DNA from: a virus
IMG/VR virus record: IMGVR_UViG_3300045742_000024
Span: 1 to 33,107 of that record
Reading direction: 5' to 3' (one strand)
Length of the DNA: 33,107 nucleotides
Shown in pieces: positions 3,055 through 33,107 of this stretch. A program made the translations under genes and the position numbers. A model generated the notes under the pieces. That model saw only the letters and a program-made list of their open reading frames with translations, did not search any database and was not told the DNA's origin. Numbering within the stretch: position 1 is the first letter of the stretch; every line of letters begins with the position of its first letter.

Positions 3055-5592
3055 ATGAATAACTTAGAAAGAGAAATAGAGTTACTAGAGAAATCTATAG
3101 ATACTACAGATACTATAGATATTAAGATACAAAGACAATTACAGTTAGAAGAACAATCTGTAAAAGCTGGAGAGATTAAATATTATAAATCATTAGATAA
3201 ACTAAAGAAATCTGGAGTAGAGACTAACTCTAAACCAACTCAACAATTCATTAAAAGAAATATTAATTTAGTAGCAAAAGCAATTGATATAAGAATCGAG
3301 GAGTCTCTAAAGAAAGTTCGAGGTAAGAGAGTTACACAGAAAGCCTTAAGAAGAGTTAAACTAACTGAGAATGTAAGTAGTTATACTTTAGCTTATCATT
3401 CTTTGAGAGTTTGTCTTAATAGAGTCTCTACTTTTAATATCACTTTAGCGAACTTTGCTATTAAGATTAGTCAAGCGATTATCTCTGAGATAAACTTTAA
3501 TAAATTTAAAGTAGAAGATGAAAAGACTTATAGAATAACTCAAGAACACATAAAGAAAACTTCAGCTCCAGCGAGAAAACAAGACATTATGAGAAATATG
3601 TTTGTTAAGACAGGTGTTGAAAAAACTAGTTGGACTAAAGCAGAACAGCTTGAAATTGGTTGCTTTCTAATTGATATTATTATTGATGTAACTAAGATAT
3701 TTGAAGTGGGTATGATTCGTAGAGGCGTAAAGACGGTTACTGTATTAAATACAACGAAGGATTTTCTAAATTGGCTAGAAGAAGCACATACTCTTAATAG
3801 TTGTTTCTTTCCTAATAAGTTACCTATGATTATACCTCCGATTCGCTGGACTTCACCGAAAGGTGGTGGGTATCTCAGCTTGTTCGAGGGTTCACAATCA
3901 TTGATAAATGTTAAGAGAAGCAATAAAGCTATCTTACATGATTTAGATTCTCTAGATTTATCTAATGTGTATGATGCTATCAATGCGATTCAAGAGACTC
4001 CCTGGGTGATCAATAAGAAAATCCTGAAGGTTGCTCAAGAGTGCTGGAAAAAAGGGATACCTATTGGTAAACCAGGGAAAGAAGTATTACCTACTAAAGA
4101 GTTGCTAACGATTCCTGAGTACCCTGAAGAGTGGACAGGGAAATCTAAAGAGTGGAGAGAGACTGATTATGAGGGCTATAAGAAATGGTCTTCTCTAGCA
4201 GCTTCCGTGCATGACCAAAATAATAACAATGTATCTAAGAGAATTAATATAAGTACTAGATTCACTATTGCTAACATGCTTATAGATGAGGAAGAAATCT
4301 TCTTTCCAGAGGTCTTAGACTTCAGAGGTAGAGTTTATCCTATTCCAACTTCTCTAACTCCTCAAGGTGATGATTTATCTAAGAGTTTACTAAAGTTTGC
4401 GGAAGGAAAGCCTCTAGGTTCTACAGGTCTTCGTTGGATGTACATTCACACTGCTAATTGCTTCGGAATAGATAAAGTATCTTTTGATGATAGAGTAAAG
4501 TGGACTGAAGACCACTTAGATGCTTTATTAGAGATAGCTATGAATCCAATGGTCAATACTCTATGGATGGAGGCAGATGCTCCATTTTCAGCACTAGCTG
4601 TATGTTTTGAGTTACTAGAGTTTTCTTTTAATCCCGAGACATTCAAAAGCTATCTCCCTTGTCCTCAAGATGGCTCTTGTAATGGACTTCAGAACTTCTC
4701 AGCTTTACTAAGAGACCCAATAGGTGCGAATGCTACTAATCTAATACCGTCTGAAGAACCGCAAGACATATACTCTGAAGTGTTAGAATTAGTTATTAAG
4801 AGAGTTCATGAAGAGGCTTTAGAAGGAAATACTAATGCTTTATTAGTTGATGGATTTCTCTCTAGACCTATCGTTAAAACCCCTGTGATGACCCTTCCAT
4901 ACGGGGCAACTAAAAGAGGCATGGCTAAACAGATAGAAGAAGCACTAAAGAAACATAATCCAGGATTATTAACTAATTCAGATTCTTGGGGAGTCTCTTA
5001 CTATCTTGCTGAGATTACATATTCATGTATTAGTAAAGTAGTAGTAGCAGCTGTAGTTGCTATGGATTATCTTCGAGAATGTGCAAGAGTAATTGCTTCT
5101 GAAGATTTACCAATACGATGGACTACTCCTATTGGGCTTCCCGTGACTCAGTGTTATGTAGATAGTGCAGAACAGAGAATTAAAGTACATCTTAATGGAG
5201 TGCAGACTAGAGTTAGTATTAAAACTGATGAAATTAAAAATGTATCTAAAGTTAATCGCAGAAAGCAATCAGCAGGAATAGCACCAAATTTCATACATAG
5301 CCTAGATAGTTCTCATTTAATGTGGACTGTCTTAATAGCACTAGAACAAGGTCTAACTAATTTTTCGATGATTCATGATAGCTATGGCGTTCACTTTTGT
5401 GATACTGACATTTTAAATTCCTGTATTAGAACTGCGTTCTTCGAGATGTACTCTAGGGATGTACTAAAGGAATGGACTGAAGAAATTAAAAGTCAAATTA
5501 GTCCTGAGTTGCAGGAGTTACTACCGACTCTTCCTGAGATGGGTAACTTAGATTTATCTCAAGTCTTAGACTCTAAGTACTTCTTTGCATAA
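3055..5592 (+). CDS. Single-subunit, T7-type DNA-directed RNA polymerase
   Basis: 845 aa against 883 in T7. It transcribes the middle and late phage genes from phage-specific promoters. Landmarks: DFRGRVYP and TPQGDD after residue 420; motif A DGSCNGLQNFSALLRD with catalytic Asp539 (T7 D537); motif B KTPVMTLPYG with Lys608 and Tyr616 (T7 K631 and Y639); motif C IHDSYG with catalytic Asp775 (T7 D812). The C-terminus ends YFFA, like the FAFA end of T7 polymerase, which contributes to the active site. The specificity-loop region before SAGIAPNFIHS differs from T7, as expected for a different promoter. GGAG precedes the ATG. The gene stands alone between two copies of the promoter-like motif. Confidence 0.97.
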   Translation: MNNLEREIELLEKSIDTTDTIDIKIQRQLQLEEQSVKAGEIKYYKSLDKLKKSGVETNSKPTQQFIKRNINLVAKAIDIRIEESLKKVRGKRVTQKALRRVKLTENVSSYTLAYHSLRVCLNRVSTFNITLANFAIKISQAIISEINFNKFKVEDEKTYRITQEHIKKTSAPARKQDIMRNMFVKTGVEKTSWTKAEQLEIGCFLIDIIIDVTKIFEVGMIRRGVKTVTVLNTTKDFLNWLEEAHTLNSCFFPNKLPMIIPPIRWTSPKGGGYLSLFEGSQSLINVKRSNKAILHDLDSLDLSNVYDAINAIQETPWVINKKILKVAQECWKKGIPIGKPGKEVLPTKELLTIPEYPEEWTGKSKEWRETDYEGYKKWSSLAASVHDQNNNNVSKRINISTRFTIANMLIDEEEIFFPEVLDFRGRVYPIPTSLTPQGDDLSKSLLKFAEGKPLGSTGLRWMYIHTANCFGIDKVSFDDRVKWTEDHLDALLEIAMNPMVNTLWMEADAPFSALAVCFELLEFSFNPETFKSYLPCPQDGSCNGLQNFSALLRDPIGANATNLIPSEEPQDIYSEVLELVIKRVHEEALEGNTNALLVDGFLSRPIVKTPVMTLPYGATKRGMAKQIEEALKKHNPGLLTNSDSWGVSYYLAEITYSCISKVVVAAVVAMDYLRECARVIASEDLPIRWTTPIGLPVTQCYVDSAEQRIKVHLNGVQTRVSIKTDEIKNVSKVNRRKQSAGIAPNFIHSLDSSHLMWTVLIALEQGLTNFSMIHDSYGVHFCDTDILNSCIRTAFFEMYSRDVLKEWTEEIKSQISPELQELLPTLPEMGNLDLSQVLDSKYFFA

Positions 5593-5620
5593 GTAGTTTT
5601 CAAGTGTCAATTGTATTCTA

Positions 5621-5656
5621 CTGATAATCTTAACGAACCTCACTAAGTATTATCAG
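5621..5656 (+). promoter_or_regulatory. Putative phage promoter copy B inside an inverted repeat
   Basis: Copy B of the repeated motif (5630-5651) has the core AACCTCACTAAG, sharing CCTCACTAA exactly with the T3 promoter. It is flanked by CTGATAAT (5621-5628) and ATTATCAG (5649-5656), a perfect 8-bp inverted repeat; with CTTA/TAAG inside, the stem reaches 12 bp with one bulge. It lies after the RNA polymerase stop and before the DNA-metabolism block, where T7 class II promoters lie. The added palindrome is not present at copy C and may be a separate regulator or processing site. Confidence 0.6.
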
Positions 5657-5685
5657 CAGATTTTGAAGATTATCAGGAGAAACAA

Positions 5686-5982
5686 ATGAAAAATTTTAGT
5701 ATAAATATTAGAAACATTAAAAGTGAAATATTAAGAGAAGCCTTAGAGAAACAACTAGATTTCTTAGGTTTAAAAGAATGGGGTGCTAATGCTTCTTTTG
5801 AACAAGCATTTTGTGTCTCAGTAGGCCTTGAATGCTGTAAAGATTGGTTCTATATGCAAACACCTAGTGGAAGACCTCAGATTACTTTAGAAGAATTCTT
5901 CAGTCTTAAACCCGAACTAAAGACAATAACTCTAGAACTAACTGAAGAACAAGAAGCTTTAGTTAGAGCAGCTCTAAGCTAA
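5686..5982 (+). CDS. Hypothetical protein, paralogue 1 of a small tandem family, 98 aa
   Basis: Function unknown. It is clearly paralogous to the protein at 6132-6437: both share QLDFLGLKEW near residue 25, DWFYM followed by PSGRPQITLEEFFSLKPE, and TITLELTEEQ near the end. A 57-base stretch is identical in the two genes. The C-terminal ITLELTEEQ pattern suggests a strand followed by a helix. A more distant relative lies at 13317-13571. It has an AGGAG ribosome-binding site and is the first gene after promoter copy B, so it is probably strongly expressed. Confidence 0.8.
   Translation: MKNFSINIRNIKSEILREALEKQLDFLGLKEWGANASFEQAFCVSVGLECCKDWFYMQTPSGRPQITLEEFFSLKPELKTITLELTEEQEALVRAALS
5861..5917 (+). 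repeat. 57-bp direct repeat, copy 1
   Basis: This stretch is identical base for base to 6307-6363. It lies within the two paralogous small genes and encodes the conserved PSGRPQITLEEFFSLKPE segment. Perfect identity over 57 bases, while the surrounding gene sequences have diverged, suggests recent gene conversion or a recombination hotspot rather than a recent whole-gene duplication. Confidence 0.9.
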
Positions 5983-6119
5983 TGAATAAAAGACAAGAGC
6001 AACTCCTAGAACTCGCAATTATCTATTGGGAATCTGGGAGACAAATACCTGTAGATTTGTTTATTCAAATGACTGAAGAAGGTTTGGATGCTAACACACT
6101 ACAAGAAGAGTATTTATAA
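5982..6119 (+). CDS. Small hypothetical protein between the paralogues, 45 aa
   Basis: Not recognised. The ATG overlaps the stop of the preceding gene (TAATG), a coupling arrangement, and the frame is open for 45 codons, ending 12 bases before the second paralogue. The protein is leucine- and glutamate-rich and probably helical, with no membrane segment. It sits between the two members of a duplicated gene pair. No strong independent ribosome-binding site is visible, so translation would depend on coupling. Confidence 0.55.
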   Translation: MNKRQEQLLELAIIYWESGRQIPVDLFIQMTEEGLDANTLQEEYL

Positions 6120-6131
6120 CAGGAGAATACT

Positions 6132-6437
6132 ATGAAAGAATTTAGTAAAAATATCGAAAACACCAAAAGTAAAATATTAAAAGAAGCTATAGAGAAACAA
6201 TTAGATTTCTTAGGTTTAAAAGAATGGAAGAGAGTAATTTCTTTTGAAGAAGCAACTTATGTCTCAGGAGACATTGAAGAGGATAAAGATTGGTTCTACA
6301 TGAAAGCACCTAGTGGAAGACCTCAGATTACTTTAGAAGAATTCTTCAGTCTTAAACCCGAACCTAAACTTAAGACAATAACTCTGGAATTAACTGAAGA
6401 ACAAGAAACTTTAGTACGCACAGTACTTAATAACTAA
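6132..6437 (+). CDS. Hypothetical protein, paralogue 2 of a small tandem family, 101 aa
   Basis: Function unknown. It aligns along its length with the 98-aa protein at 5686-5982, with the middle (residues about 35-55) most diverged and the C-terminal third almost identical. It replaces the cysteine-containing segment of paralogue 1 (two cysteines in ECCKD) with an acidic one (EEDKD). ACAGGAG precedes the ATG. It ends 31 bases before the SSB gene. Tandem retention of two diverging copies suggests both are used. Confidence 0.8.
   Translation: MKEFSKNIENTKSKILKEAIEKQLDFLGLKEWKRVISFEEATYVSGDIEEDKDWFYMKAPSGRPQITLEEFFSLKPEPKLKTITLELTEEQETLVRTVLNN
6307..6363 (+). repeat. 57-bp direct repeat, copy 2
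   Basis: Identical to 5861-5917. The distance between the copies is 446 bases, so recombination between them would delete the 45-aa ORF and create one chimeric paralogue. Confidence 0.9.
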
Positions 6438-6468
6438 AGACTAACATAAATCAAGGAAAAATTAATAT

Positions 6469-7146
6469 ATGAAGAAATCAGATTTTTATGGGAAAGTAAT
6501 TCCCTCACCAGCAGTAACCGCGTTCTTCCCAGCTCTCACGATACCAGAGACATTCAAGGGTAAAACAAGATATAAAACAGGAGGTGTCTTAGATACTTCT
6601 GACCCGAAGCACAAAGCTTTCATGAAGAAAATTAACGACTTCTTACAAGAAAAATTAGCACTATGGTTAGCTGATGATTCTGCTGAAGGGGGTTTGGCTT
6701 TCAAAGACCATTACAAAGTAGTACCAGCATTTAAAGCAATGACTGATAAAGATAAGAAGCCAGTAGCAGGAAAAGCTTTGTTTAATTGTAAGACTAAAGA
6801 TGAACCGAAACTAATTGATGCTAAAGGAAATCCAATAACAGGAGTAAGACCTACGATTAATGGTGGTTCTCCTATTAGATTAGGATTACAGCCCATGCTT
6901 TATGTGATGCCTGGAGATGACGAGATTGACCCAGATACTGGAATAGGCATAAAAACTAGAAAAGTAGGAGTCACACTTTATATACAAGTGGTCAAGATTC
7001 TTAGTTTAGCTTCTTATGGAGACTCTGAAGTAGACTTCGGAGATGAAGATGAAGGAGATTATGAGTACGATGAATCTCAAATGTCAGAAGATGAATCTGA
7101 AGTTCCTTTCGATGCTTCTAGTAAATCTGAAGAAGAAGATTTCTGA
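6469..7146 (+). CDS. Single-stranded DNA-binding protein, T7 gp2.5-like
   Basis: 225 aa against 232 for T7 gp2.5. It coats single-stranded DNA at the fork and coordinates polymerase and primase-helicase. The central region has an OB-fold-like pattern; the last 45 residues are strongly acidic and end in EEEDF. A C-terminal phenylalanine after an acidic tail is the hallmark of gp2.5, needed for contact with the polymerase and helicase. Position between RNA polymerase and nuclease matches T7 gene 2.5. A weak AAGGA ribosome-binding site lies about 12 bases before the ATG. The upstream frame of the next gene may overlap its stop codon. Confidence 0.9.
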   Translation: MKKSDFYGKVIPSPAVTAFFPALTIPETFKGKTRYKTGGVLDTSDPKHKAFMKKINDFLQEKLALWLADDSAEGGLAFKDHYKVVPAFKAMTDKDKKPVAGKALFNCKTKDEPKLIDAKGNPITGVRPTINGGSPIRLGLQPMLYVMPGDDEIDPDTGIGIKTRKVGVTLYIQVVKILSLASYGDSEVDFGDEDEGDYEYDESQMSEDESEVPFDASSKSEEEDF

Positions 7147-20128: not shown

Positions 20129-20167
20129 AAGGAGTTATCTATAGAAATGTAGGTAACTCCTTTTTTT
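20129..20167 (+). terminator. Strong rho-independent terminator after the capsid gene
   Basis: AAGGAGTTATCTATA (20129-20143) pairs along its whole length with 20148-20162 (two G-U pairs) around a GAAA tetraloop; the T-run at 20161-20167 follows. This is the position of the T7 late terminator Tphi after gene 10. Partial termination here would make capsid mRNA more abundant than tail-gene mRNA. Confidence 0.9.
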
Positions 20168-20186
20168 GTTTAAGGAAAAACGAATA

Positions 20187-20849
20187 ATGGCAATTTATAT
20201 AACACCAACAACAGAACTTAATGCAGTAAATGAGATACTAACTGCTTTAGGTACAACTCCAGTAAACTCTATAACTGACCTTTCGTATTTCTCAGATGCT
20301 AGTATTGCTTTATTTACTCTTAGAAATGTTACTCGAGAAGTGCAAGATAAAGGATTATGGTTCAACTCAGATTACAACGTCACTCTAACTCCTAATGGAA
20401 GCAATGAGATAGTTATAGGGGATACAATCCTAAAAGCTAGACCCTCTATGGGAACTTTAAGTGACCCTGGAGAATCAGTGTCTTTTGTAGTAAGACAGAA
20501 TAAACTATTTAATAAATCTACAAATTCTTTTACGTTTGGTTCTGCGGTATCTGCGGACATTGTTTACTTATTTGACTTTGAAGAATTACCTCAAACTGTT
20601 CGTCATTATGTGACAATTCGAGCTGCTAAGATAGTTCAAACTAAAATTCTAGGTGCAGACTCATTGAACGTCTTTAATGAGACTCATGAACAAGATGCTT
20701 GGGATTCTGTAGAAGCAGATATAGTCACTCAAAATCCTCACTCTACTTTATATATGCAAAGAGCTAAGGTTAGACATAAGCAACTTATTACAGACCCGAA
20801 TACTAGAGTAACAAGCAACCAACAAAGAGGAAACTATGCAGTCTCCTAG
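20187..20849 (+). CDS. Tail tubular protein A-like, first copy (gp11 family)
   Basis: 220 aa from the ATG at 20187, which follows TAAGGAAAA; an upstream in-frame ATG at 20166 lies inside the terminator T-run region and is unlikely. The protein begins TTELNAVNEILTALGTTPVNS and continues with VTREVQDKGLWFNSDY, the typical gp11 start, and has the PQTVRHYVTIRAAKI segment in the second half. Gp11 is a 12-subunit adaptor ring joining portal to nozzle. A second gp11-family gene follows directly. This copy differs more from T7 gp11, so the two may form different rings or hetero-rings. Confidence 0.82.
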   Translation: MAIYITPTTELNAVNEILTALGTTPVNSITDLSYFSDASIALFTLRNVTREVQDKGLWFNSDYNVTLTPNGSNEIVIGDTILKARPSMGTLSDPGESVSFVVRQNKLFNKSTNSFTFGSAVSADIVYLFDFEELPQTVRHYVTIRAAKIVQTKILGADSLNVFNETHEQDAWDSVEADIVTQNPHSTLYMQRAKVRHKQLITDPNTRVTSNQQRGNYAVS

Positions 20850-21435
20850 TCCTTCAGTAAAAAGTGATTTACTAGAGATTATCAATAGAGTCTTAATTCT
20901 ATTAGGACTTCCTCTAGTCTCTTATTCAACCACTTCAATACCAGTTCAATCTGATGCTGGAATGGTTAATTATTTACTTCAAGCTCAAACTAGAGAAGTT
21001 CTAGCTAGAGGCTGGTGGTTTAATACTTGGGAACGCTATCTTGTACCAGCTGGTACATTAGTTGTTGATACAAATGGATTCACTCCTCTAAGTGTTCGCC
21101 CTAGTCCTCTTAGTGACCTAGAGTGTCCTGGAGACCACTATGAACTTTATGATAACAATATAATTTCTTATGAAGATGCTGCTAATGGAAACATAGACAT
21201 CCCTACTCTAGATACTTATTTAGATGTTGTGGTAGCTATGGATTTAGTTAAATGCCCTACTTCTTTTGTCGATTATGTTGTGTATAAAACTGCTAGGTTA
21301 TTTGGAAGGTCTCTTGGTCTCAAGTTAGGTCTTGAAGACGAACAACAAGCTTTAACAGCTCTACAACTAGATAATAGTAGAAGCAGTAGAAAGCATAACT
21401 GGTTTAAAGAATCAACAATTAGTAGAAGGTATTAA
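20836..21435 (+). CDS. Tail tubular protein A-like, second copy (gp11 family)
   Basis: 199 aa, close to T7 gp11 (196). It has the same plan as the preceding gene: LLEIINRVLILLGLPLVSY at the start, QTREVLARGWWFNTWERY near residue 55, PTSFVDYVVYKTARLF in the second half, and a helical C-terminus. It overlaps the first copy by 14 bases and has GAGGAAAC before its ATG. It ends 3 bases before tail tubular protein B. Two adjacent full-length members suggest tandem duplication followed by divergence. The GWWFN motif makes this the closer match to canonical gp11. Confidence 0.85.
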   Translation: MQSPSPSVKSDLLEIINRVLILLGLPLVSYSTTSIPVQSDAGMVNYLLQAQTREVLARGWWFNTWERYLVPAGTLVVDTNGFTPLSVRPSPLSDLECPGDHYELYDNNIISYEDAANGNIDIPTLDTYLDVVVAMDLVKCPTSFVDYVVYKTARLFGRSLGLKLGLEDEQQALTALQLDNSRSSRKHNWFKESTISRRY

Positions 21436-21438
21436 TTA

Positions 21439-23577
21439 ATGGCATTAGTCACTCAAACAATCCCAGCGTTATACGGTGGTGTATCTCAACAATCTCCAGT
21501 TCAACGGAGTCCAGCACAGTGTCAGGAAGCTGTTAACTGTAGTTTCTCCGTATCTGATGGAGTATCCAAGAGACCACCTTTAGAAGTGATTAATGAACTA
21601 ACTACTTCAGATTTATCAGGAGCTTTCTTTCATTGGATAACTGATAGAAACAATGATAAGTACTTAGCTATTATTTATGCAGACGGTGACTTAGATGTCT
21701 ATAGATTATCTGATGGTCAAAAACTAGTTGTACTCAATGATACTGCTAATCCTTATTTGATTTGTACGAACCCTGTTAATGAGATAAAAGCTTATACAGT
21801 TGAAGAGAATACTTATTTTGTTAATTCTACAATAACTGTAGATGCTGCTGCTGCTGTAACTCCAGGCTCTATAGCTGGTACAGTTCAAACTCTTCAAGAT
21901 ACTTTATTAGATAGTGCCTCCGAAGGAGATATTTATAAAATCATTGGGGATACAGATAACAAATTTGATAGCTATTATGTTAAAAAAGTTAGTGGTAAAT
22001 GGTTCGAATGGGTATCACCAGGAATCCAGTATCAACTTGATAATACTACTATGCCTCATAGACTCGAATTAATCTTTGATGTCATTGACCCTAATGGTGT
22101 TAGATTTGAGTTTCTTCCTGTAACTTGGGGAGAACGTACAGTAGGTGATGATGGTTCTAATAAATTCCCTAGCTTCGTAGGTAACTTAATAACTGGAATA
22201 TTCTTTACTAGTGATAGATTAAGCTTCCTTAGTTCTTCTTCAATTGTAATGAGTGAAACTGATGAACACCATAATTTCTTTAGAACTACAATTACAGACG
22301 TATTAGCTACAGCTAGAATTGATATTAAAGAAACTTCTGATGATGCAACAGCTTTCTTCTATGCTAAACCTCTTGGTGATAACATCATGTTATTCTCAGA
22401 GAATAGACAGTCAGCTTTATCTGGAGACCCTTTCATTAGTCCTCAAACAGTTGGAATAACCTTAGCTACTAACTATAGGTCTTCATCTATTTGTGAACCT
22501 CAGAACTCTGGAAGTAACTTATATTTTCCACTGAATTCTGGAGTATCTACAGAACTTAGAGAACTCTATGTTCGTGATGATACTTTAATGACTTCTGCTG
22601 AAAATGTTAGTTCTCATGTACCCTCATACGTACCTAAAGATGTTCGCTTATTAGCAGTTCAGAACAACTTAGATTTCATAGCGATGTATTCTGATGATAC
22701 TCCAGATAAACTTTGGATTAATCAATACAAATATCAAGGACAACAAAAGGTTCAATCCTCTTGGTCTCACTGGTTATTTGATGAAGGTATTAGAATATTA
22801 GATATAGAAACTATCGAACATTATTTATATGTTGTTTATACATATACTAAAATTGATATTGGTCTTACTGAAACTACTTCAACTTATATTGGAAGGATTA
22901 ATCTAAAGACACAAGACCCAGGGATAGCCACTGGTTTCTCTCACCAAATTAATTTAGATTTACTACAGAAAATCACTGGTTCTTATGATGGTGGTTCTGA
23001 TACTACTTCATTCTCTACAGTATCCCCATATCTTGTTGAGTCTCTTAAAAACAAACTTGTGTTACTCAAAGGAGACGGCTGGGCTGATAAAGGTAGATAT
23101 GTTACTAATGGTACTCCTGACCCTTTTGTTAGACTTGCCTCAGATAATCAATTCTCGATAACTGGAGATTGGACTACTGGTGATGTATGGATAGGAATAC
23201 CTTATAATCAAGAGTTCACATTTTCAGAACTTCAATACAGAGATAACCAAGGTGTTAACATTGCAGTTAGAAACCAGGTTAGAGAAATGTCTGTGTCATT
23301 TACAGATACTCCTTATTTTAAAACCGAAGTAGATAGGATAGGTAGAGACCCAGATATAGCTGAAGTAATACCAGATATGTTCTCTAGTTATACTTCACGT
23401 TCTCTAGGTAACGAGTATTTCACACTTAATAATCCTGTCTTAGCTACTGCTACTTATACATTCCCTATCTTAGGAAATTCTAAGGAAGTAGTTATTAAGA
23501 TTAGTAATGATAGCTATATGCCTTGTAATATTCAATCCGCTTCTTATAAAACCCTAATTTCAACGAGGTTACGATGA
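21439..23577 (+). CDS. Tail tubular protein B (nozzle), T7 gp12-like
   Basis: 712 aa against 794 in T7. Six copies form the tail nozzle. The start ALVTQTIPALYGGVSQQSPVQR is diagnostic, followed by CQEAVNCSFSVSDGVSKRPPLEV. Further markers are FVGNLITGIFFTSDRLSFLS and MSETDEHHNFFRTTITDVL near residues 245-290, and DKLWINQYKYQGQQKVQSSW in the centre. It is strand-rich throughout, as a beta-propeller protein should be. Its end overlaps the next gene (ATGA). Confidence 0.96.
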   Translation: MALVTQTIPALYGGVSQQSPVQRSPAQCQEAVNCSFSVSDGVSKRPPLEVINELTTSDLSGAFFHWITDRNNDKYLAIIYADGDLDVYRLSDGQKLVVLNDTANPYLICTNPVNEIKAYTVEENTYFVNSTITVDAAAAVTPGSIAGTVQTLQDTLLDSASEGDIYKIIGDTDNKFDSYYVKKVSGKWFEWVSPGIQYQLDNTTMPHRLELIFDVIDPNGVRFEFLPVTWGERTVGDDGSNKFPSFVGNLITGIFFTSDRLSFLSSSSIVMSETDEHHNFFRTTITDVLATARIDIKETSDDATAFFYAKPLGDNIMLFSENRQSALSGDPFISPQTVGITLATNYRSSSICEPQNSGSNLYFPLNSGVSTELRELYVRDDTLMTSAENVSSHVPSYVPKDVRLLAVQNNLDFIAMYSDDTPDKLWINQYKYQGQQKVQSSWSHWLFDEGIRILDIETIEHYLYVVYTYTKIDIGLTETTSTYIGRINLKTQDPGIATGFSHQINLDLLQKITGSYDGGSDTTSFSTVSPYLVESLKNKLVLLKGDGWADKGRYVTNGTPDPFVRLASDNQFSITGDWTTGDVWIGIPYNQEFTFSELQYRDNQGVNIAVRNQVREMSVSFTDTPYFKTEVDRIGRDPDIAEVIPDMFSSYTSRSLGNEYFTLNNPVLATATYTFPILGNSKEVVIKISNDSYMPCNIQSASYKTLISTRLR

Positions 23578-24032
23578 CTTTAATTTATTTACCACCATGT
23601 GAAATGGATGTTGATTATCTAGCTAAACACATGAGTGAAGCAGATAAAGCTGAAGTATTAGCTTCAGGACAACATAGTCCAAGAGAAGCTATTTCATTTT
23701 CTCTTGATAGAAGTTGGTTTTCTAGAGTAGCTGTTTTTGATAACAAACCTATTGCTGTTTTTGGCTGTGCAACTGCGGATTACGAAGGAAATATTGGAAG
23801 TCCTTGGTTACTCAGTACTGGAGAGTTCTTTCGATTACCTGTGAGTTTCTTCAGAGATTCTAAGGAGTATATTCAATATTTCCTAGAGATGTACTCTAGT
23901 TTAATTGTGAATGTTCATGCTAAAAACGCTAAAAGCATTCATTGGTTGAAAACTAATAACTTTAAATCACTACGAGAAATCGAAGTTAATGATGAAAAGT
24001 TCTTAACTATGGAACTGAAGTATGACAATTAG
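23574..24032 (+). CDS. gp13-like / DUF2833 protein with GNAT-like pattern
   Basis: 152 aa against 138 for T7 gp13. It follows tail tubular B, as gene 13 does in T7, and has the DUF2833 layout: an N-terminal CEMDVDYLAKHMSEADKAEVLASG, then FSRVAVFDNKPIAVFGCA, and a C-terminal VHAKNAKSIHWLKTNNFKS. That last segment resembles the acetyltransferase pattern of N-x3-I-x-WL-x3-GF, suggesting an acetyltransferase fold, catalytic or not. T7 gp13 is needed for virion assembly. The start overlaps the upstream stop. Confidence 0.75.
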   Translation: MTLIYLPPCEMDVDYLAKHMSEADKAEVLASGQHSPREAISFSLDRSWFSRVAVFDNKPIAVFGCATADYEGNIGSPWLLSTGEFFRLPVSFFRDSKEYIQYFLEMYSSLIVNVHAKNAKSIHWLKTNNFKSLREIEVNDEKFLTMELKYDN

Positions 24033-24423
24033 ATATTTTAAATCAAGAAAACAAGATGCTTATGGAGACTTACAACTAGGAAGTATATTTCTACAGCAAG
24101 TCTCTAGACCTTTAGGAATAAACACTAATGATGTCACGACTTCAAGGTATCCTATTATTTCACACCCTACTAAGGATGAACACGCTCTTGTAGTAACAGG
24201 AGCAATCCCTATTCATCCTGGAGTTCGTCAAGCAGCTCAAGGTACTGGAAACTTCCCAACTCAAGAAGCTTTCATTAATAATCAAGGAGAGTCTGCGAGA
24301 ATCAAAGGATTACTCAGAAACAATAATGAAGTTGATGGTTTCTTATTAATCCCTAGAAGATGGGATGAAAAGACGTATGAACAGTTAGAAATAGAAGGAT
24401 TCTTTCAGGAGTTAGAAATATGA
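24022..24423 (+). CDS. Hypothetical protein between gp13-like and lectin-like genes, 133 aa
   Basis: Not recognised. It overlaps the gp13-like gene by 11 bases and the following gene by 4 (ATGA), so all three are translationally linked. It has no membrane segment. Segments RYPIISHPTKDEHALVV, PIHPGVRQAAQGTG and VDGFLLIPRRWDEKTYEQLE suggest a mixed alpha/beta fold. It has no counterpart in T7 at this position. Its place in the tail region suggests a virion or assembly role. Confidence 0.75.
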   Translation: MTIRYFKSRKQDAYGDLQLGSIFLQQVSRPLGINTNDVTTSRYPIISHPTKDEHALVVTGAIPIHPGVRQAAQGTGNFPTQEAFINNQGESARIKGLLRNNNEVDGFLLIPRRWDEKTYEQLEIEGFFQELEI

Positions 24424-25643
24424 TTGGAATTAATTTAGGGAATACAATGGGAAAGACAAAAATGTTCTCCTTTACTCCTTCTCAATCCCTCTTCATAACA
24501 GGAACTACACCAATACTTGATTCATTTCCAGGAGCGCAAACCGCTTATAGCATAGCTAGAAAACTAAGAACGGATTATAGTGGCTCAGCTATTAGGGTTA
24601 GAACTGATGCCCCAGACCCACTAATTAATGGAGATTTTACAACAGACACTACAGGCTGGAACATGGTTGGCTCAGGTTCAATTGCAGCAACAGGTGGGCA
24701 ACTTGTAAACACAAACGGGAATTATAATTACGCATATCAAGACATACCGGTAGAAATCGGTAGGACTTATACCATATCAATAGATTTTGAATATGTTGAT
24801 GTCAATGGATTGATACGTTTAGGTTCTACTAGTCAAGGGTTAGATTATTTTAGTGATACTGTCACCAGCACAAATACATATACATACCAAGTTACAGCAA
24901 CCACAACCACATTAAGCATCTCTTTATGGTGTTTGAGTGCAACTGGTGGGCTGGTCACGAAATGGGATAATATAACCATACAACAATATGAGGCGGATAT
25001 AGGTTTTGATGCCAACGGTGATTTAGATGAAGCTGCTTTATTAGCTCATACAGGTTCTAATAACGGTTATGTGGTTAAGACATACGACCAAAGTGGGAAT
25101 GGTAATGATTGGGTTCAACCTACAGCCAACCTACAGCCTAAAATAGTAAACGCTGGAGCGGTCGAAAAGGTTAATGGTAAACCTGCAATTTTTAGTGATG
25201 AAGTTGGAGCTAGTCATGATTTCATTGAATCTACACTTACAGGAGGTGCTGTATCAACTATTTTTTCAGTTGTAAAAGGTTCATCCTCAGGAGCAATGAT
25301 ATTATTAAACGACAAGGCGCAATTGGCTGGATTTATCGGAGCAGGGGAATTGTCACAAGGAAGTGCAAGTTATAACAGTGTAGGGACTCCGACAATATAC
25401 GCTAATGGTTCAACGATAGGAACAACAAGGGACGATATGTATGATGCAATTTTATCCACTCATACTATAATAACTCATACAAATGTAGATTGTAGTGGGT
25501 TTACTGGTTTTAGAACTAACTATGATGGAACTATATATCCTGCTGTTGATTATACTCAAGAAACCATAATTTACGACAGTGATAAATCCAGCGACCGCGC
25601 AACTATTGAAGCAAACATCAACGAATATTATACAATCTATTAA
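24420..25643 (+). CDS. Lectin-like virion protein: split concanavalin/AbfB-like domain with an inserted carbohydrate-binding-like domain
   Basis: 407 aa. Residues about 34-66 (SFPGAQTAYSIARKLRTDYSGSAIRVR) are the start of a phage lectin-like domain related to arabinofuranosidase-B-type sequences. That domain resumes at about 191 with EADIGFDANGDLDEAALLAH and YVVKTYDQSGNGNDWVQP, then QPKIVNAG. Between them, about 68-190, lies a complete jelly-roll-like module: LINGDFTTDTTGW, YAYQDIPVEIGRTYTISIDF and KWDNITIQQY, the plan of CBM_4_9-type carbohydrate-binding domains. The insert and surroundings use more GC-rich and less AGA/TCT-biased codons than neighbours. Surface polysaccharide binding is inferred. 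An in-frame ATG at 24447 is an alternative start. Confidence 0.72.
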   Translation: MIGINLGNTMGKTKMFSFTPSQSLFITGTTPILDSFPGAQTAYSIARKLRTDYSGSAIRVRTDAPDPLINGDFTTDTTGWNMVGSGSIAATGGQLVNTNGNYNYAYQDIPVEIGRTYTISIDFEYVDVNGLIRLGSTSQGLDYFSDTVTSTNTYTYQVTATTTTLSISLWCLSATGGLVTKWDNITIQQYEADIGFDANGDLDEAALLAHTGSNNGYVVKTYDQSGNGNDWVQPTANLQPKIVNAGAVEKVNGKPAIFSDEVGASHDFIESTLTGGAVSTIFSVVKGSSSGAMILLNDKAQLAGFIGAGELSQGSASYNSVGTPTIYANGSTIGTTRDDMYDAILSTHTIITHTNVDCSGFTGFRTNYDGTIYPAVDYTQETIIYDSDKSSDRATIEANINEYYTIY

Positions 25644-25654
25644 AGGAATAATTA

Positions 25655-25888
25655 ATGAGTAATGAACAACAGAATCCTGGGAGTAATTTCTCTAAGGTAT
25701 TACTAGCGGAACTTCCAGTATATGGCGCACGTAGAATATATGTACCAGCTGGAGATGTGACTGTAGTAAATGATAAGGGAGTGTCAGTAACAGTAGTAGA
25801 AGCTGAAATTGATGCAGTACAAAATCAAGGAACTTTCTACAATGAAATCACTAGTATCACAGGTACTCACTTGTATGTGAGCTACTAA
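25655..25888 (+). CDS. Small hypothetical protein, 77 aa
   Basis: Not recognised. It lies 11 bases after the lectin-like gene with a moderate ribosome-binding site (AAAGGAAT). It is strand-rich (ARRIYVPAGDVTVVNDKGVSVTVVEAEID, then THLYVSY), with no charged helix, and reads like a small beta-barrel or capping domain. Its position between lectin-like and internal virion genes suggests a small structural protein. Confidence 0.7.
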   Translation: MSNEQQNPGSNFSKVLLAELPVYGARRIYVPAGDVTVVNDKGVSVTVVEAEIDAVQNQGTFYNEITSITGTHLYVSY

Positions 25889-25903: not shown

Positions 25904-26332
25904 ATGTGTGAACCTACTTCAATAATCATGGGTATATCTGCGGTAGCTGGAGCTTTTCAGACTCGTAAGAACGCTAAGAGCCAAGAGAAAGCTACTAAGG
26001 CTGCCTCCCTAGAACGAGCGAAACAATTGAGTACTTCAGCATCTATAAAAGCTAATGATAGAATAAGAGCAGCTCGTAGAGCTAGGGCTAAACTTAAAGC
26101 TTCTGCCGCTGAATCTGGTGTAGAAGGTACTTCAATTAATTCTTTATTAAACAATGAGGACTTTCAAGCAGGAATGGATGTTTCTCATATTCGACTAGAT
26201 AATAATTATGCTATTGATGCAAACACTTCAGCAACACAATCTAACTTAAATAGTATTCAACAACCTAATTATTTAGCCACAGGTCTACAGTTAGCTGGGA
26301 TTGTTGCTAGAAGTAAAGAGGATAAACCATAA
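25904..26332 (+). CDS. Internal virion protein, T7 gp14-like
   Basis: 142 aa against 196 in T7. Gp14 is part of the internal core and is ejected to form the outer-membrane pore of the DNA channel. It starts MCEPTSIIMGISAVAGAF, a glycine/alanine-rich membrane-active helix like T7 gp14, followed by a long positively charged helix (QTRKNAKSQEKATKAASLERAKQ), RAARRARAKLKASAAESGVEGTS, and LDNNYAIDANTSATQSN. AAGGAG precedes the ATG. It is first in the set gp14-gp15-gp16. Confidence 0.88.
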   Translation: MCEPTSIIMGISAVAGAFQTRKNAKSQEKATKAASLERAKQLSTSASIKANDRIRAARRARAKLKASAAESGVEGTSINSLLNNEDFQAGMDVSHIRLDNNYAIDANTSATQSNLNSIQQPNYLATGLQLAGIVARSKEDKP

Positions 26333-31915: not shown

Positions 31916-33107
31916 ATGCCTAGTATTAATTATTACTCAATAGCAGCTTGGATTGCTGTTAATCAGGATGCAACTTATGTACTCCCCTTCCCTTATATCT
32001 CTAAAGCTAATGTCGTATTCTATGTAAATGGAGTTCAGACAGCAGACTCAGATATTGATTGGGTAACAAGTTCTACCTTTAAGATTAAAAACACATTTCC
32101 AGTTGTTACTAATGATGATATTGTTGCTAGGCGTTTTACTAGAGCAGACCAGAGATTAGCTGATTTTCACAACAGCTCTACTTTAGGAGAAGAAGAACTC
32201 AACATAGTAACTAAACAGTTATTATATTTAATTCAAGAACAGATTGATAGAAGGAACGCAGGGTTAGACCCTACACCTCCTCCAGGTGGTACTGGAGACC
32301 CTGGGAATGACCCTGATTTAGTTGATGATATAATTGCTCAGATTACATCCTCTCAAACCTGGTTAAACTTAATAGAACTGATTACTCTTAATGACATAAA
32401 TGCAGAAGCAATTATGCAGAACTCATTAAGTATTCATGAAGGATGGTCAGTTAATAGGATCTTAGATGATGTAGTTGCTCAGAACACAATTGATTTATCT
32501 GATTTTGGTATTGAACTTGATACTATAGATGCACAGATAATTGACATTAACTCTACAATCATAACTAATGAATCTGCTACTGCTACTGCCTTAGCTGGTA
32601 TCGCTGTTAGATTCGATGATGCAGAAGCTAATATACTTACATTATCTAATGCTGTAGCAACCCTAGATTCTGCAACAGCTACACAGATAACTCAAATACA
32701 AGCTGAGTTAGATGCTGCTGAAGCTTTGATATTAACTGTGGAAACTGCAAGTGTCACTAGAGACAACGCAATGACATCTAGAGTTGACATCATGGAATCT
32801 GGTTTTATATCTGATTTCTCAACAGTTAATGCAAGAATAGGTACTATCGAAAGTACTTATGTGGATGCTGCTGGAGCTTCTGCTTTATTCACTACAGAAA
32901 TAACAACATGGTATGCAAGTAATAATTGGGAAGGTTTATTCTCAACTAGTTCTTATATATCTGGTGTTGCTCTTTCATCTAGTGAGAATGAAGCGAGTAT
33001 CTCTGGAATAACCTCATTTCTAATTGGGAACAACGCTGATTTCAATGACCCTAATACTTGGGTAGATGGAACATTCGGTGTTCAAATGGCTAATGTGCAG
33101 ACTACTG
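31916..33107 (+). CDS. Tail fibre protein, T7 gp17-like N-terminus (cut by window end)
   Basis: About 397 codons are present and the frame is still open at 33107, so the C-terminal receptor-binding part is missing. The first 110 residues match the T7 tail fibre attachment domain: YYSIAAWIAVNQDATYVLPFPYISKANVVFYVNG, VTSSTFKIKN, and VVTNDDIVARRFTRADQRLADFH with ELNIVTKQLLYLIQEQIDR. This domain docks on the tail. A proline/glycine linker (DPTPPPGGTGDPGNDP) follows, then repeated coiled-coil segments (ITQIQAELDAAEALILTVETA) like those in lambda J-type tail proteins. The start is ATG 31916; the closer ATG 31912 is out of frame and stops after three codons. Confidence 0.9.
   Translation, partial: MPSINYYSIAAWIAVNQDATYVLPFPYISKANVVFYVNGVQTADSDIDWVTSSTFKIKNTFPVVTNDDIVARRFTRADQRLADFHNSSTLGEEELNIVTKQLLYLIQEQIDRRNAGLDPTPPPGGTGDPGNDPDLVDDIIAQITSSQTWLNLIELITLNDINAEAIMQNSLSIHEGWSVNRILDDVVAQNTIDLSDFGIELDTIDAQIIDINSTIITNESATATALAGIAVRFDDAEANILTLSNAVATLDSATATQITQIQAELDAAEALILTVETASVTRDNAMTSRVDIMESGFISDFSTVNARIGTIESTYVDAAGASALFTTEITTWYASNNWEGLFSTSSYISGVALSSSENEASISGITSFLIGNNADFNDPNTWVDGTFGVQMANVQTT

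Follow-up and report, generated by a model that had tools for sequence, protein, structure and literature searches.

The window analysed here, a virus record of 33,107 bases, encodes a T7-like phage that carries an integrase (phrog_1) alongside genes of the gp11, gp12, gp13, gp14 and gp16 types. Its gene for a gp13-like internal virion protein (23574..24032; phrog_308, E 2e-22) and that for a gp14-like internal virion protein (25904..26332; phrog_805, E 6e-11) form the left and right flanks of a cassette, and between them, on the same plus strand, lie three open reading frames: ORF133 (24022..24423), recovered as a family by iterative search (alignment A11), whose stop overlaps the start of the next gene in an ATGA; ORF407 (24420..25643), which encodes a nested lectin-like protein of 407 residues; and the small ORF77 (25655..25888). 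The phage's own gp17-type tail fibre (31916..33106, plus strand; PF03906 Phage_T7_tail, E 4e-13) runs off the contig, and its presence makes ORF407 an additional adhesin, if it is one. Elsewhere in the window, consecutive paralogues of tail-tube A (gp11, phrog_446; E 3.5e-45 and 1.4e-13) occupy 20166-20849 and 20836-21435. A second gp11 copy is also found in the related locus L310 (6381-6998), and a gene-sized gap precedes gp12 in L311 and L312. Two neighbouring small ORFs at 5686-5982 and 6132-6437 are likewise paralogous to each other.

In its full length, ORF407 matched no Pfam family (E<=1). Once residues 68-190 were removed, the remainder matched PF09206 (ArabFuran-catal) at E 1.2e-4, with aligned residues crossing the junction, at a score of 21.8 bits that falls short of the family's gathering score of 25. 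The same excision improved the tblastn match to gp059 of Synechococcus phage S-CBS4 from 3e-9 to 2e-16, in a collinear alignment over 100% of the query. A profile built from seven uninterrupted phage homologues aligned in two blocks, positions 1-35 with residues 32-67 (24513..24620) and positions 36-276 with residues 191-407 (24990..25640, to the end of which the gp059 match also extends), leaving a gap of exactly 123 residues. When a grid of cut pairs was scored, 67|191 was the best among those tried (206.6 bits, against 178.9 uncut), and a MAFFT alignment with 44 homologues placed a single gap at this same position. Folded alone with AlphaFold2, residues 68-190 (24621..24989) gave a closed beta-sandwich at pLDDT 94.1; in the full-length model (pLDDT 73.5), residues 64-191 again formed a CBM-like domain (Z 14.4), with a strand at 58-70 leading from the first carrier piece into the insert and one at 180-194 leading out of it. 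The CBM-like module is thus modelled at the tip of a beta-hairpin of the carrier. The original prediction had proposed a module lodged between two normally contiguous pieces, and named homologues continuous over the whole length as the observation that would speak against it; those we recovered were continuous only without residues 68-190, and the Pfam, tblastn, profile, cut-grid, MAFFT and AlphaFold2 results agree on the nesting. We regard the nested protein as real with near certainty.

The structural matches of the insert were mostly carbohydrate-binding modules, among them CBM4, CBM16, CBM61 and a porphyran-binding CBM at Z 12.7-16.2, from the CBM4 structure 1gui at the lower end to the porphyran-binding CBM 8xmz as the best, values that indicate a beta-sandwich of the CBM4 type. 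At the sequence level, the insert profile matched the CBM4 structure 1gui at E 4e-5 and also 1gu3 and 1ulo, and CBM_4_9 (PF02018) was matched by 13 of 35 insert relatives at E<=0.01, one of which (L149) scores above the gathering threshold of that family. The window insert itself matched no Pfam family at E<=0.01 and no NCBIfam model. On these models and profiles, the insert has a predicted CBM4/16/22-type fold, a fold that is shared with domains not necessarily sugar-binding and so does not in itself prove that sugar is bound.

The carrier, residues 32-67 together with 191-407, is a GH54/concanavalin-like lectin fold. Its profile matched alpha-L-arabinofuranosidase B (AkAbfB, 1wd3) at E 2e-9; the carrier relatives L217 and L242 exceed the PF09206 gathering score, and one close relative gave a weak match to Laminin_G_3. 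The likeness to GH54 lies in the first strands of the N-terminal part of the catalytic domain, including the YDQSGNGN motif, and ends after about 75 residues; GH54 has no insert. Since a Foldseek search with the full model was dominated by the insert, the assignment draws on sequence profiles and on an AlphaFold2 model that is weak in parts (pLDDT <50 at residues 1-27, 297-321 and 349-360). The S-CBS4 protein gp059, annotated in RefSeq as a virion structural protein, is an uninterrupted full-length homologue of the carrier at 30% identity; it has no insert, and S-CBS4, which has been grouped as a cyanosiphovirus (PMC6157547), is not T7-like, unlike the phage in the window. Genes with the carrier fold are usually annotated as hypothetical proteins or arabinofuranosidases, and in the closest relatives (e.g. 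L013-L018) the domain forms the C-terminus of long, tail-fibre-like proteins.

We sampled 344 carrier copies in the fetched loci, and 308 of them run uninterrupted through the site at which the window carries its insert; interruption at that site was seen in the window only. A further 27 sequences nonetheless have this carrier interrupted by an insert, in loops other than the one used in the window, which brings the nested set to 28 with the window, a number that is not a frequency because resemblance to a nested query (L019) was the basis of retrieval, and several of its members are near-identical. Numbered along the carrier profile, the insertion points fall at 34/35 in the window, at 44 in L302, at 46-56 in L411 and at 57-62 in 25 sequences. 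NF048003, the domain of the RcGTA head-spike fibre, covers the insert above cut-off in 10 of the 12 other nested proteins tested; within NCBIfam, neither L391 nor L302 matched this model, and ORF407 matched none at all, NF048003 included. The window insert and the NF048003 inserts are treated as different families, as hhalign gave a probability of only 8.8 for their relationship. Different loops of one fold therefore carry different sandwiches. The L302 carrier (3149-7066; Bacteroidetes bacterium UKL13-3) is chromosomal, with a 187-residue insert in a third loop that matches no family. A search for the pattern FDN[VI]...DIGF in the DNA of viral contigs gave 31 matches and no relatives, P0001 and the nozzle, each scanned by itself, gave no matches, and the apparent insert-plus-carrier matches of another nested query, A4, proved to be chance alignments to ordinary contiguous carriers.

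The site of the cassette is empty in related phages. In 74 related loci gp13 abuts gp14, with a spacing of -16 to 155 nt, against 1871 nt in the window, and neither the carrier nor the insert domain occurs in the fetched stretches of these relatives. Among 35 genes, ORF407 departs furthest from the norm in synonymous codon use, compared within amino acids (z -5.1), with the insert alone at z -4.6 and the C-terminal part at z -2.3; ORF133 is native-like (z +0.7). The tyrosine integrase (1863-2870) ranks second in atypicality (z -3.7). The empty site in all 74 relatives and the foreign codon use lend weight to the earlier suggestion that the gene was acquired. Its position, described earlier as between tail and core genes and here placed between gp13 and gp14, is confirmed, as is its unusual codon usage. 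The accompanying claim of a lower AT bias did not hold, and GC content was rejected as a sign of acquisition: ORF407 stands at 0.382 where genes average 0.359 +/- 0.022, third of 23 genes, with GC3 at z 0.8. The repeat offered as an example of foreign composition does exist, as a CAACCTACAGC pair of two tandem 11-mers at 25116-25137, but it encodes the conserved Q-x-T-A-x-x-QP motif of the family, is therefore uninformative on composition, and was discarded as evidence of that kind. No clear pair of direct repeats was found flanking the insert at its two junctions. Because the closest carriers and GH54 are uninterrupted, the insert would be the derived state, on parsimony rather than a tree.

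Iterative search recovered 84 members of the ORF133 family in the fetched loci, of which 82 adjoin an ORF with the carrier fold; as these loci were picked by carrier, adjacency and not presence is the informative quantity. The family member lies downstream of the carrier in 81 cases, so the gene order in the window, with ORF133 upstream of ORF407, is reversed. No match to ORF133 was found in Pfam, PHROG, NCBIfam or the PDB, and its family, which is undescribed, has the consensus ...ISRELYNI..RP...HPD...VHP...LFPEL...IIPSTSTV...GWFP (e.g. L067 3783-4190 and L449 1135-1551). Other carriers have a different partner, an upstream spike-base gene of the NF048002 type (L088, E 1.9e-24), and 11 of the 13 such hits in carrier loci are adjacent to the carrier. 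A second small family, of about 88 residues (L454 2673-2936, L401 2639-2920, L048 2648-2920 and others), lies mostly directly upstream of carriers, with most of its 19 hits adjacent, and several of the carriers downstream of it start MIGYGNSMFLATHGIL; it matched neither NCBIfam nor Pfam and is possibly another type of spike base. Neighbours of the ORF133 type and of the base type were found together at none of 322 carrier ORFs. In the window, neither ORF133 nor ORF77 matched the NCBIfam spike-base model NF048002, though a diverged base may have gone unrecognised. ORF77, for which no relative was found, is a candidate base or accessory protein of the cassette; a spike-base role gains no support from sequence, as its score against spike-base-like profiles was no better than that of shuffled sequence.

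The N-terminus of ORF407 points in the direction of a head spike. The peptide MIGINLGNTMG (residues 1-11; 24420..24452) has alternating hydrophobics, like residues 2-10 (IALGLGLGL) by which the RcGTA head fibre is anchored as a star within the base pentamer (PMC7296036). On a position-weight matrix it scored 8.5 and was beaten by only two of 2335 background N-termini, both from carrier-fold proteins, with the next-best ORF of the window at -0.84; 13 N-termini picked by hand served to train the matrix, with base-adjacent proteins bearing other N-termini excluded, so the score expresses resemblance and is not proof of anchoring. An alternation score of at least 3 was reached by 3 of 16 base-adjacent carriers, 3 of 9 ORF133-adjacent ones (the window included) and 0 of 114 others. 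Base-adjacent carriers often begin MLGLGLSL-like: the carrier of L088, directly downstream of an NF048002 spike base, starts MLGIGITP, and that of L397, whose upstream neighbour is an RcGTA-type spike-base-like gene (matching the base of L088 at E 3.5e-30), starts MLSLSLSL and combines the carrier fold with a nested NF048003 domain (E 2.4e-23).

The RcGTA head spike, with base Rcc01079 and fibre Rcc01080, is a close parallel: both fibre and ORF407 join an alternating-hydrophobic N-terminus to a lectin-like bulk, the RcGTA fibre domain NF048003 is nested in carrier relatives of ORF407, and some of these adjoin NF048002 spike-base genes. The window differs in that its insert is CBM4-like rather than NF048003, that it has no recognisable base gene and that the neighbour is of the ORF133 type. 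RcGTA head fibres bind capsular polysaccharide and attach reversibly (PMC7296036, PMC10218006), and by analogy ORF407 is probably an adhesin with two potential glycan sites, besides gp17.

That ORF407 would be displayed on the virion as a glycan adhesin is, in our assessment, likely. The fuller reading that we favour, with somewhat less assurance, is of an accessory virion adhesin acquired together with ORF133 and anchored most probably at a capsid-vertex spike base; for a head-vertex spike specifically, we hold the case to be evenly balanced. Under this proposal, a temperate T7-like phage would have gained ORF407 together with its partner ORF133 where gp13 meets gp14, the N-terminal peptide would anchor the ORF407 protein, most likely on the spike base in the manner of the RcGTA head fibre, and ORF133 would act as an assembly partner. 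The CBM4-like sandwich grafted into the carrier hairpin tip would provide a second glycan-binding surface and so, we propose, a reversible hold on surface polysaccharide before gp17 engages. The head-vertex location is favoured, not secure, since no base gene was recognised and the closest carriers tip long tail-fibre-like proteins. The earlier description of the protein as a capsid or tail decoration gains from the resemblance of the anchor peptide and the neighbours to those of head-spike fibres, which would place it on the virion. For CL131, 23 virion proteins have been detected by LC-MS/MS (PMC6293099).

The same observations can be read, with a rather low probability, as an accessory tail or baseplate adhesin, that is, a side fibre on the nozzle or adaptor with ORF133 as a chaperone of the tail-fibre-assembly type. 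The nearest carriers are indeed C-terminal domains of long proteins adjoining an ORF133-type gene, the nozzle gene and gp13 both lie upstream of ORF407, and the label minor tail protein is attached to several SEA-PHAGES homologues. ORF407, however, has neither a long fibre nor a tail-docking region, as only about 31 residues precede the lectin, and its N-terminus resembles the head-fibre anchor. Far less probable is a glycan-degrading enzyme, in which an active GH54-like arabinofuranosidase carrier with a CBM insert would make a depolymerase. The annotation alpha-L-arabinofuranosidase given to some phage homologues and the 1wd3 profile match would agree, but that match is confined to chain residues 15-87 of 482, after which the chain is not alignable to the carrier profile, and to positions 13-87 of 315 in PF09206; with the rest of the GH54 catalytic domain unaligned, catalytic residues are unsupported. 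About as improbable, or marginally more so, is a non-virion moron, secreted or expressed in lysogeny, with a role in biofilm or as a coat on the host cell: the phage has an integrase and some carriers paired with ORF133-type genes start with signal-peptide-like N-termini, but ORF407 shares its strand with the late virion genes around it, with ATGA overlaps, the cassette has no surplus of promoter-like sites (7 found, 10.2 expected) and the N-terminus of ORF407 itself is not signal-peptide-like. An assembly or sequencing artefact is scarcely credible, for while the nested form comes from a single contig with no second copy of this insert at this site, the insert is in frame, its limits are exact domain ends within one hairpin, and many independent contigs show inserts nested in this carrier fold.

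The virion adhesin that we favour has a precedent in the evolved Dits, Tals and MTPs, in which CBMs are inserted in loops of phage lectin-like domains, and the BppA CBM resembles 1GUI and 1GU3 (PMC7291167), structures that the ORF407 insert profile also matches. In evolved Dit and ORF407 alike, a loop of a lectin-like beta-sandwich holds the CBM, within a phage protein that is structural or, for ORF407, probably so. The carrier differs, being the galectin domain of Dit in a siphophage baseplate as opposed to a GH54/concanavalin-like fold encoded by a separate accessory gene in a T7-like podovirus, and the ORF407 carrier profile matches GH54, not Dit. Among the open-access papers searched, none describing nesting within this carrier fold was found. 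As a tentative generalisation, which may well prove too broad, we suggest that the lectin fold is a graft acceptor in unrelated phages and prophages, that at least three of its loops have independently taken different sugar-binding sandwiches to give capsid-vertex spikes of the RcGTA kind, and that, with a cassette of two or three genes separating gp13 from gp14, the phage of the window is the first of the T7-like kind to bear such a spike. The nesting of sugar-binding domains extends beyond Dit galectin domains and recurs at several loops of a lectin fold widespread in environmental phages, a fold here linked both with head spikes of the RcGTA type and with an undescribed family of neighbour genes. 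Many genes of environmental phages thereby acquire functions that can be tested, and the nesting offers a natural example of how glycan specificity could change through a domain graft while the anchor is left untouched.
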